Below are positions 27,974 to 30,636 of a stretch of DNA of 30,636 bases, one piece after another. Source of the stretch: a virus; the IMG/VR virus record IMGVR_UViG_3300002488_000039, positions 1-30,636 of that record; one strand, given 5' to 3'. Position 1 is the stretch's first letter. Every line of letters starts with the position of its first letter. The position numbers and the translations under genes are program-made. The notes under the pieces are model-generated. The model was given only the letters and a program-made list of their open reading frames with translations, had not been told where the DNA came from and searched no databases.

Positions 27974-28402
27974 ATGGACACAAAAAAAGATAGCATAGCT
28001 GCATCAAATGCTTGGAAAAATTTTAAGAAAGGCTACATGGATAGAACAGAACATATGGGTAAACCTATTTCTGCTAAACAAAATAAAGCTGAGTATGATA
28101 GAGAGAAAAATGAATTTTACTATGATACTAGTAAAAAGAAAATGAGACTTATTCCTACAGATGATGGTGAGCAAAGAATAACGAAAGGCATACAAAATTG
28201 GCAATTAGCTCCTGATATGAAAGCCAAATCACCACTGCAAATGGTTGGTGTACAAAGCCCATTAAATAAAATTAGCGGTCCATGTAAAGCTGCAGCTAAA
28301 AAGAAATTTAAAGTGTGGCCAAGTGCTTATGCTTCTGGTTGGGGTGTAAGATGTACTAAAGCTGGTGGACCAAGTAAATACGGCGGCGGTAAGAAAAAAT
28401 AA
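27974..28402 (+). CDS. Basic protein with C-terminal PSAYAS motif (DUF5872-like)
   Basis: This 142-aa, Lys-rich protein ends in CKAAAKKKFKVWPSAYASGW followed by GVRCTKAGG. I recognise this as the short PSAYA-type domain seen in many phage and some bacterial proteins, which I believe is called DUF5872; the number is from memory. The N-terminal part (SNAWKNFKKGYMDRTEHMGK) is charged and helical, and the middle has FYYDTSKKKMRLIPTDDGEQ. Two SPL motifs (KSPLQ and QSPLNK) come just before the conserved domain and recur in later genes. The start is two bases after the endolysin stop. The role is unknown; DNA binding or virion packaging are guesses. Confidence 0.6.
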   Translation: MDTKKDSIAASNAWKNFKKGYMDRTEHMGKPISAKQNKAEYDREKNEFYYDTSKKKMRLIPTDDGEQRITKGIQNWQLAPDMKAKSPLQMVGVQSPLNKISGPCKAAAKKKFKVWPSAYASGWGVRCTKAGGPSKYGGGKKK

Positions 28403-28403
28403 C

Positions 28404-28961
28404 ATGAACTTATTTAATAACTTCAATATACAGACGTTTAAAAACAAGAAACCTCCTGCGGATAACTCTATGTCTACATTTAAGGAGATAAACGAAATAA
28501 ACAAAATACCTGTAAATGAAAAGTTTGTAAAATATAATGATGATCAAGAAAAAGTATTTAAAGATATATTTAAAAACAATAATTTAAAATTTCCTGATAA
28601 ATTATTTAAACAATTAAATAACGATAGTAATCCAATTATTAAAAAATTAAAAAACTATCATAATAGAACTAGACCAAATGGTTTAGCTAGTGGTTTTGGT
28701 TTAAACGTAGAAGTAGTTAACATGGATACAGCTAAAACTAAATCATATCCATCGGGTCACTCAGCACAATCTAGACTATTTGCTAAAGTATTTAGTGATA
28801 TATATCCTAAACACAAACAGGAGTTTATGAAAGCTGCAGATAATATTTCAAAAAGCAGATTAATAGGTAGAGTACATTACCCATCTGATTCACAAAACGG
28901 TGTAGAATTAGGTGACGCGCTTTATCAACACTATAAAAATCAAAACAATGAGAGTATTTAA
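28404..28961 (+). CDS. Soluble PAP2-family (class A acid phosphatase-like) phosphatase
   Basis: All three PAP2 signature motifs are intact in the 185-aa product: K-x6-RP at Lys83-Pro91 (KNYHNRTRP), PSGH at 116-119 (YPSGHSAQS), and SR-x5-H-x3-D at Ser151-Asp162 (SRLIGRVHYPSD). The His in PSGH and in the third motif act in phosphohistidine catalysis in this superfamily. There are no membrane spans and no signal peptide, unlike lipid phosphatases or periplasmic class A enzymes, so it would act in the cytoplasm unless carried in the virion. The start chosen is the ATG one base after the upstream stop; the 3' end overlaps the next gene by 14 bases. The substrate is unknown, with nucleotides or phospholipid head groups possible. 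Confidence 0.85.
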   Translation: MNLFNNFNIQTFKNKKPPADNSMSTFKEINEINKIPVNEKFVKYNDDQEKVFKDIFKNNNLKFPDKLFKQLNNDSNPIIKKLKNYHNRTRPNGLASGFGLNVEVVNMDTAKTKSYPSGHSAQSRLFAKVFSDIYPKHKQEFMKAADNISKSRLIGRVHYPSDSQNGVELGDALYQHYKNQNNESI

Positions 28962-29745
28962 CACACCATTTAACTCGCCTTTAAACAACACTGGTGATCC
29001 AAGAACAGAAACTAGAACCCGAACAGAACTAAGTAGTGGAAATGTTAGAGATGTTTATCGTGGTGGAGGTAGACCATTTGATTGTGCTAAAGATAAAGAC
29101 GCAGCGTCAAGATTACAAGGTTGGTTTAACAATATGAATCGAAATTTTTATAGAGGTGCTTTGAATAAGAATCCAAATGTAAAGTGGCAAGAAGTAATGA
29201 GGCAAGATGGAACTAAATTTTCAGATTATAGAAGAGGTGTAACAAAAAACTATCAGTTATCAGGTTTAGTACAACAAGACGGTTGGGCAGATGAAAAATA
29301 TAGAAAATCAGCAGATATGAATATTAAAAGATTTCAACAACAGATGCAGTTTGGAAATACTTGTAAAGCATATGAATTTTATAGAAAGATAAAAACGAAC
29401 TTTAAAAAAGGTAGACCAGAGGATTATTATTACTCTAAAATATACGAATATCAAGGTGATGAGGATACGTTAAAGAGATTTGAAAAAAGGAATCAAAACC
29501 TATTAACTACTATAACAGAACAAAGGCAAATAACAGATAGTGTGAAAGAAAATTTACCTGGATATTTAAAACAATGGGAGGATAATGTAGATGGTATTAG
29601 AAGCAAGTATAAAACATATGAAGATTATGTAGTTGCTTCTGAACAGTGGAAAAAAGATAATCCTGGGTGGAATAAAGAAAAAGGTGGTAGTACTACGCCT
29701 TGGGTAGAAACTGATAGAAAAACTGAAAAAGTAAACAGAACATAA
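28948..29745 (+). CDS. Late protein of unknown function with SPLN motif
   Basis: I do not recognise this 265-aa protein. I take the ATG at 28948 as start because it opens with FNTPFNSPLNNTGD, matching the SPLN motif of neighbouring proteins. An upstream in-frame start would only lengthen the overlap with the PAP2 gene. The body is Arg/Lys/Asp-rich and helical with many aromatic residues (ASRLQGWFNNMNRNFYRGAL and EDYYYSKIYEYQGDEDTLKR). The C-terminus is charged and low-complexity. Cysteines are few, and there is no signal, membrane segment or enzyme motif. It overlaps the next gene by one base (TAATG). A minor virion or DNA-associated protein is plausible, without proof. Confidence 0.5.
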   Translation: MRVFNTPFNSPLNNTGDPRTETRTRTELSSGNVRDVYRGGGRPFDCAKDKDAASRLQGWFNNMNRNFYRGALNKNPNVKWQEVMRQDGTKFSDYRRGVTKNYQLSGLVQQDGWADEKYRKSADMNIKRFQQQMQFGNTCKAYEFYRKIKTNFKKGRPEDYYYSKIYEYQGDEDTLKRFEKRNQNLLTTITEQRQITDSVKENLPGYLKQWEDNVDGIRSKYKTYEDYVVASEQWKKDNPGWNKEKGGSTTPWVETDRKTEKVNRT

Positions 29746-30098
29746 TGGCATACATACAATACAACTCTCCTTTTAAATGTTGGAAAGGATATGAAAGAGT
29801 ACCCGGCACACAAGCTGGAGCCAAAGGTAGTTGCAAAAAATCATCGCCTCTTAAAAAACAAAAAGGTGGTGGAACGTCAAAAACTTGTTTACCTGCAGCT
29901 AAGATCAGAAGTTTATCTAGTGAAAAGAAAAAAGAATTAGTTAGCTCAAAGAAGTCTGCAGCTTCAAGAGGTGCTTACAAAAGATCAAGTAAAACAAATG
30001 TAAAGGGTGCTCGTAAAAAAGGAGCTACACTCAGAGACTGGTTTGAAAAAGAAGACTGGAGAAGAGTTGATGACCCTAGTAAAAAATGTGGTGAGTAA
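29745..30098 (+). CDS. Small Lys-rich late protein with Cys-bracketed N-terminus
   Basis: This 117-aa, very basic protein begins with YNSPFKCWKGYERVPGTQAG, continuing AKGSC, so that two cysteines bracket a Gly-rich loop. It has an SSPLKKQKGG motif and then a conserved-looking CLPAAKIRSLSSEKKKELVS helix. The last third (NVKGARKKGATLRDWFEKED, then WRRVDDPSKKCGE) is compact and charged. I believe similar short proteins occur in marine phages, but I know no function. The four cysteines could form a small metal site or disulfides. The gene overlaps its neighbours by one base on each side (TAATG), so it is translationally coupled. Confidence 0.55.
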   Translation: MAYIQYNSPFKCWKGYERVPGTQAGAKGSCKKSSPLKKQKGGGTSKTCLPAAKIRSLSSEKKKELVSSKKSAASRGAYKRSSKTNVKGARKKGATLRDWFEKEDWRRVDDPSKKCGE

Positions 30099-30636
30099 TG
30101 TATAAACAAAAACGTAATCCGTTTCCCGTCACTTCATGTGGTAGAAGAAGAAATCATATGACATCTCCTTTAAATAAAAATGGAGAAAGTAGAGGCGAAG
30201 GACATGAATCAGGTAAAAGATTTAAATATGATCCTGCTGATAAAAAAGCATTTGAATCTTTAAACCAAAAAACTAAAGATAGTTTACAGGGTGAAGCTTG
30301 GAAATATAATAAACCTTTTTTTAGTCCTAAGTATGGAGTTAATGTAGATCCTGAAGATGGAGTTTTATCTGGTCGACCTGTATATTCAGATGGAACAAAA
30401 TTAACTTATGATAAAATTGATAAGCCATTTGATAGTCCTGCTAATAAGGCAGAACCAAGACGTACTATTGGTAAAGGTAAGAATTTTAATAAAGTATCTA
30501 AAGATAAAAGCGCTACAGGTGGTGCAGCTGGAGGAGGTATGACACAAAAAGGTGTTAATGAATATAAAAGAAAAAATCCTGGTAGTAAATTAAAAACTGC
30601 TGTAACTAAAAAGCCATCAGAGCTTAAACCAGGAAG
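30098..30636 (+). CDS. SPLN-motif late protein, 3'-truncated by the window edge
   Basis: The ATG overlaps the preceding stop by one base and the frame is open to the end of the window (179 codons visible). The product starts with MYKQKRNPFPVTSCGRRRNH and then MTSPLNKNGES. It has further SP motifs (FFSPKYGVNVD and FDSPANKAEPRR). Near the edge it reads KGVNEYKRKNPGSKLKTAVT followed by KKPSEL, a motif I recognise from a short basic domain in Bacteroidota and marine phage proteins (possibly DUF6321; the name is from memory). In those proteins the domain continues with a Lys/Arg and Cys-rich segment, which would lie beyond the window. The function is unknown. Confidence 0.6.
   Translation, partial: MYKQKRNPFPVTSCGRRRNHMTSPLNKNGESRGEGHESGKRFKYDPADKKAFESLNQKTKDSLQGEAWKYNKPFFSPKYGVNVDPEDGVLSGRPVYSDGTKLTYDKIDKPFDSPANKAEPRRTIGKGKNFNKVSKDKSATGGAAGGGMTQKGVNEYKRKNPGSKLKTAVTKKPSELKPG

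Follow-up and report, generated by a model that had tools for sequence, protein, structure and literature searches.

The window, by which we mean the whole stretch of DNA analyzed here, is an entire virus record of 30,636 bases. Its plus strand encodes a terminase, a portal, a capsid-region protein, further virion proteins, and a protein of 2580 aa. The capsid-region protein matches phrog_13704 ("virion structural protein") and is called MCP below, a name that rests on gene position and relatives. Among the matches listed, proteins from Flavobacterium phages, Maribacter phage Panino, and a Caudoviricetes phage share 42.8 to 47.5% identity with it, and Cellulophaga phage proteins match it as well; given this similarity to Flavobacterium, Maribacter, and Cellulophaga phage proteins, the host is probably a member of the Bacteroidota. 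The 2580-aa gene is followed by an envelope-type and lysis-type run (thioredoxin fold, M15 peptidase, PAP2) with short motif-bearing genes interspersed. The thioredoxin-fold protein in this late run (PF00085; 26549-26947) has a secretion-like N-terminus and no CxxC motif. An Rfam scan of the window returned no match.

The initial annotation had described a short Ser-Pro-hydrophobic-Asn/Lys pattern in successive late proteins and suggested a shared tag. The genes and peptides concerned are as follows.

27974..28402, + strand: late protein of 142 aa, with an N-terminal domain predicted to be folded (about residues 1 to 60), a linker with two motifs that is predicted to be flexible, and a C-terminal WPSAY two-Cys module
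28226..28240, + strand: KSPLQ motif in the 27974 gene, read from the sequence
28253..28270, + strand: QSPLNK motif, directly heading the WPSAY module
28404..28961, + strand: PAP2-superfamily protein, motif-free (PF01569 at 35.5 bits, cut-off 27.2; scanned as 28365-28961)
28948..29745, + strand: late protein of 265 aa with an N-terminal motif; no match in Pfam or PHROG
28972..28989, + strand: NSPLNN motif, read from the sequence; Ser is residue 10 of the 28948 protein
29745..30098, + strand: late protein of 117 aa, made up of an SPFK N-terminal leader, a CWxGY two-Cys module, an SPLKK joint, and an LRDWF two-Cys module
29763..29777, + strand: NSPFK motif, heading the CWxGY module; Ser is residue 8 of the 29745 protein
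29841..29858, + strand: SSPLKK motif, heading the LRDWF module
30098..30634, + strand: late protein with a DUF6321-like module (PF19846, 24.9 bits), truncated by the window end
30161..30178, + strand: TSPLNK motif, read from the sequence; Ser is residue 23 of the 30098 protein
30320..30334, + strand: FSPKY peptide, not an instance of the motif
30431..30448, + strand: DSPANK motif, heading the extended DUF6321 module

All eight peptides quoted in that annotation lie where it had placed them, and three are indeed close to an N-terminus (in the 28948, 29745, and 30098 proteins). "Successive" is inexact, as the PAP2 gene within the run lacks any SP. We also excluded FSPKY as a motif copy, since SPK falls short of expectation in these proteins (5 vs 10.0 among short basic representatives; see below), and kept DSPANK, whose inclusion is borne out by its position at the head of the DUF6321 module. 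The pattern SP[LF][NKQ] was observed six times in the five genes at 27974-30634 against 0.072 expected, a number reached in none of 1,000 shuffles, and it is absent from the other 18 genes of the window (0.43 expected); the motif having been picked from this very sequence, this enrichment test is post hoc. The Ser codons of the motif copies are TCA, AGC, TCG, TCT, TCG, TCT, and AGT; since they differ, the likeness is at the peptide level and is not a DNA repeat. For the 28948 protein, a search of viral_contigs yielded two relatives only; SPLNN is retained in locus L003, with its codons changed synonymously. The truncated 30098 protein stays below the PF19846 cut-off of 28.5 bits, and a complete relative (L005:11632-12264) reaches 43.5 bits.

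Distribution of the motif among relatives

Relatives were fetched by homology search with the 27974, 29745, 28948, and MCP proteins. The resulting sample comprises 241 loci (including L081, the window piece around the MCP), 3,623 mechanically called ORFs, and 974 loose, 4-mer-based cluster representatives; its loci were found through the window's own proteins, and many overlap on one contig. Among the 170 short (≤250 aa), basic (K+R ≥18%) representatives, SPF occurs 19 times (1.7 expected) and SPL 22 times (2.8 expected); of 8,000 tripeptides, MAF ranks 1st, SPF 2nd, and SPL 3rd in this set. Over all 974 representatives, SPL ranks 105th and SPF 964th; the signal therefore comes from the short basic proteins. 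In the 554 short representatives encoded on the late strand, SP-hydrophobic-[KNQ] reaches six times its expected number (80 vs 13.4); it is at chance level in 216 large late-strand representatives, head and tail proteins included (27 vs 33.1), and is not enriched in 200 short opposite-strand representatives (2 vs 3.1). The swapped PS form, used as a control in the short late-strand group, gave 10 vs 13.4. The initial annotation had named equal frequency in head and tail proteins, or no conservation among relatives, as evidence against a tag; neither was found, and enrichment over shuffled proteins extends from the late genes of the window to those of its relatives.

The motif is concentrated toward the N-terminus: basic representatives of 45 to 300 aa carry 12.6 times the expected number within their first 25 residues (44 vs 3.5), 3.7 times in mid-protein, and 2.4 times toward the C-terminus. 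Favored residues at position 3 are F, L, M, A, and V, with K (9 vs 23.7) and R (1 vs 7.4) depleted there; K is favored at position 4 (55 vs 23.6). The relatives' large late-strand proteins hold twice the expected number of the related TP-hydrophobic-[KNQ] (66 vs 33.1). In four long records (66 to 68 kb), the short basic carriers are found on the same strand as the MCP gene, in a module cluster; one of the genomes, G049, has a second cluster of carriers besides it, and two others (G015 and G047) have few carriers. When 2,253 ORFs were grouped by single linkage, 22 of 332 families held at least one SP[LF][NKQ], and the sharing of modules drew 511 of the ORFs into a single network. Within a locus, motif variants agree weakly with one another, in a comparison that relatedness and overlap of loci confound.

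Occurrence follows one capsid lineage. Of 50 records that bear the modules described below and were picked from 158 loci for comparison with the MCP, 47 encode this MCP; the three without an MCP match may be fragments. N-terminal leaders of motif-bearing proteins include MAFKMKSPFK, and when viral_contigs was scanned for stretches that code for MAFK[hydrophobic]KSPFK, seven were found, six of them in records with this MCP (52 to 56% identity) and the seventh in a 5.5-kb record without it. The same scan with Ser and Pro swapped found none, nor was the leader pattern found in genome_contigs; a second leader pattern gave no hit. At locus L267, adjacent genes start with MAFKMKSPFKKK and MAFKMNSPFKKK and continue into different modules, and the codon differences between this pair of leaders are mostly synonymous. 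Both Ser codon families (TCN and AGC/AGT) are in use, with synonymous changes between relatives; selection therefore appears to act on the peptide.

Among MCPs of relatives, the 13 distinct N-termini caught by a sequence pattern start MGVLSPQ... or MAN[IV]TPN... and contain no SP-hydrophobic-K. In segments of five isolate records (phi38:1, phi19:3, elemoC, Panino, and ctfjg026), we found no basic (K+R ≥18%) ORF below 700 aa with SP[LFMIV]; as these flavophage isolates lack the motif, their structural-protein labels cannot test it. The structural protein gp41 of Cellulophaga phage phi17:2, a label that itself rests on similarity to phi4:1, matches residues 18 to 82 of L030:5867-6448; this is a hint only, and SPIK and a DUF6321 module lie at the end away from the gp41 match.

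Basic mini-modules headed by the motif

Four sequence-unrelated basic modules are headed directly by the motif: WPSAY, LRDWF, CWxGY, and extended DUF6321. In the 12 residues that precede WPSAY, the form [ST]P-hydrophobic is present in 47 of 57 distinct contexts; the corresponding counts are 49 of 55 for LRDWF, 32 of 35 for CWxGY, and 12 of 22 for extended DUF6321. With S, T, N, G, D, or Q allowed before Pro, the counts rise to 49/57, 54/55, 35/35, and 18/22, respectively. Folded enzymes used as controls gave low counts (PAP2, 1/24 contexts; M15, 0/4), and two further modules are not directly headed (LASW, 0/6; RRVSFACRF, 0/5). A separate count over a longer upstream stretch gave 51/61 and 52/58, and 0/43 for DUF6321 anchored further inside. 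Nearly every stretch of the four modules has exactly two Cys (WPSAY, 50/50; LRDWF, 58/60; CWxGY, 27/27; DUF6321, 35/36), which would fit disulfides formed outside the cytoplasm. Where the WPSAY module (54 aligned sequences) stands alone, 21 of 24 proteins keep [ST]P-hydrophobic close behind Met, and three are without it. In an alignment of relatives of the 29745 protein, Pro35 of SSPLKK is invariant in 52 of 52 sequences. The motif is also found in N-terminal leaders without a recognized module and near C-termini.

The same element marks fusions. Five of 35 distinct PAP2 ORFs have a long C-terminal extension, which is CWxGY plus LRDWF in four and LASW in one, and SP-hydrophobic-K is present at all five joints; fusions of PAP2 to two-Cys modules occur at L013, L014, L084, L087, and L103, whereas the window has PAP2 and the modules in separate genes. 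The L013 fusion carries SPFKK at its joint, matching the SPFKK found in leaders of that module where it stands alone. DUF6321, of which the 30098 protein carries a module-like stretch, and DUF5872 (PF19197) are, judging from their Pfam names, families whose function is unknown; one WPSAY relative, L267:2887-3054, matches DUF5872 weakly (20.0 bits, below the cut-off of 27.5), and the 27974 protein of the window shows no such match at an E value of 0.01. Pelagibacter phage HTVC010P (L248; 24036-26773) encodes, among a series of small genes right after an M15 peptidase, a protein with a DUF6321-type module, as in the window; this module, unlike that of the window protein, is without an SP-hydrophobic head.

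An AlphaFold2 model of the 27974 protein has a mean pLDDT of 68.3, with blocks within residues 11 to 60 at 91 to 96 and residues 70 to 90 below 50; the model of the 29745 protein reaches 58.7, and overall confidence is low for both. The motifs sit in low-pLDDT segments of both, as expected if the motif segment were a flexible tail or hinge; such models prove little. Foldseek with the pLDDT-68.3 model and sequence searches of the PDB gave no significant match.

Candidate roles of the motif

The recurrence noted at the outset is real and larger than first described. The sequence comparisons indicate a tag or hinge, S-P-hydrophobic-[K/N]-x, that is specific to one marine phage clade and defined at the peptide level. 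What stands of the initial proposal is the common short tag; it is more than a free N-terminal tag, as it mainly heads mini-modules and domain joints. Our favored reading, which we hold tentatively and at somewhat less than even confidence, is that the motif, as part of a flexible tail or hinge, would serve for docking and be recognized by one shared, late-made partner, most likely a virion or assembly component. Docking of this kind would plug many small basic proteins, plus enzymes such as PAP2 via fusion, into one place, on the model of the shared N-terminal capsid-targeting sequences of T4 internal proteins. We favor it because the picture of numerous small basic proteins that share a short leader and go with one capsid lineage resembles T4 capsid targeting, and virion loading of the tagged proteins would be plausible. 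Also in its favor are the enrichment confined to short late-strand proteins, the four unrelated modules, the retained PAP2 joints, the motif's persistence in most stand-alone WPSAY proteins, its placement in low-pLDDT segments, and codon use that suggests selection on the peptide. Against it, no partner stands out, SP[LF][NKQ] being missing from the window's large proteins and the element from the MCP leaders seen in relatives; isolates with a related MCP are without the motif, two modules are not directly headed, some stand-alone WPSAY proteins are bare, and the agreement of variants within loci is weak. The cluster adjoins endolysin and envelope-type genes and the two-Cys modules would suit disulfides, so an envelope or lysis role for the motif-bearing proteins is possible.

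Another reading, which we consider possible but rather unlikely, is that the motif is the structural start (a cap or hinge) of each mini-module and a favored linker, which binds nothing and recurs since modules are shuffled together with their leaders. Its fixed place abutting the modules, the invariant Pro35, and the shared SPFKK of L013 joint and stand-alone leaders would all follow; however, the motif is common to four unrelated modules, occurs in module-free leaders and near C-termini, is modeled at low confidence, as if disordered, and stays nearly constant as a peptide while its codons change synonymously. The position at module boundaries would suit a processing site, with a late phage protease cutting at or beside SP-hydrophobic to trim leaders and separate modules, and relatives encode small proteins of a possible peptidase type (HExxH-like and PWE, 32 distinct). 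We nevertheless hold processing to be improbable: no such peptidase is seen in the window, and a separating cut would be pointless in the stand-alone modules, most of which carry the motif close behind Met. Repeats within proteins, this stand-alone retention, and near-C-terminal copies argue, indirectly, that docking or a hinge fits better than a one-off cleavable propeptide.

SPKK-type DNA-binding motifs come from histone work and need basic residues at positions 3 and 4. The high Lys content of the carriers and the excess of K at position 4 might suit small basic proteins that compact or cover phage DNA through such a turn, but K and R are depleted at position 3 and SPK is below expectation; we disfavor this reading and think it more improbable still. 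That the motif is an artefact of chance or of Lys/Ser-rich composition retains next to no probability: the window test by itself is post hoc, but composition-preserving shuffles, the swapped tetrapeptide, the opposite-strand and large-protein controls, and the specific leader scan with its empty swapped control all speak against it. We rejected it on the window count, the tripeptide ranks, the strand and size controls, and the module-head counts.

Few systems are known in which phage cargo proteins have a sorting tag in common, T4 being the foremost. A narrow literature search, covering few subscription journals, found no description of this tag, of DUF6321, or of an SPKK motif in phage. We class the tag with the known shared targeting or docking elements on late phage proteins, as a new variant. 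In T4, the internal head proteins IPI to IPIII and Alt carry capsid-targeting sequences, the element being a single cleaved N-terminal propeptide of which the first 10 residues suffice (PMC9026906). Like the T4 internal proteins as portrayed there, the carriers are small, basic, otherwise different late proteins with related short N-terminal sequences, as seen in the N-terminal excess (44 vs 3.5) and the L267 leader pair. Unlike that T4 element, the one described here has 4 to 6 residues, heads two-Cys modules, is known from sequence alone, and is not confined to the N-terminus, since copies are repeated within proteins, at joints, and near C-termini. Crassviruses are, like the phage of the window with its probable host, tailed phages of Bacteroidota; they carry proteins of 60 to 277 kDa inside the virion, cargo that is large, unlike the motif carriers, and described in the text drawn on here without a shared short tag (PMC10172136).

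A tag across unrelated small proteins of ocean viruses would give a sequence handle for predicting virion or assembly proteins among hypotheticals, and a ready system for testing phage cargo loading. Bolder, and in our view doubtful, is a combinatorial tagging code, in which interchangeable SP-hydrophobic-K-headed, two-Cys basic mini-modules, single or in series, would send enzymes and small proteins to one late assembly, e.g., the virion interior.

Some further sequence features of the relatives were observed. L253:15463-15771 and 32 distinct ORFs combine an HExxH-like sequence with a following PWE, most starting MAFK, and may form a mini-metallopeptidase family; of two scanned against Pfam, neither had a match above cut-off, and one had a sub-threshold match to DUF6782 (putative metallopeptidase). 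Cys-bearing C-terminal variants end in SPLAKYGCSKKYKKGK, SPLAKYGGTCK, or SALAKKGCKYKK (L037:8486-8821, L063:6247-6732, and L253:17949-18245). Other recurrent short motifs stand beside the SP motif, among them FMSKHC and TPLEKKSC-like sequences (L071:11647-11961 and L200:1932-2090).
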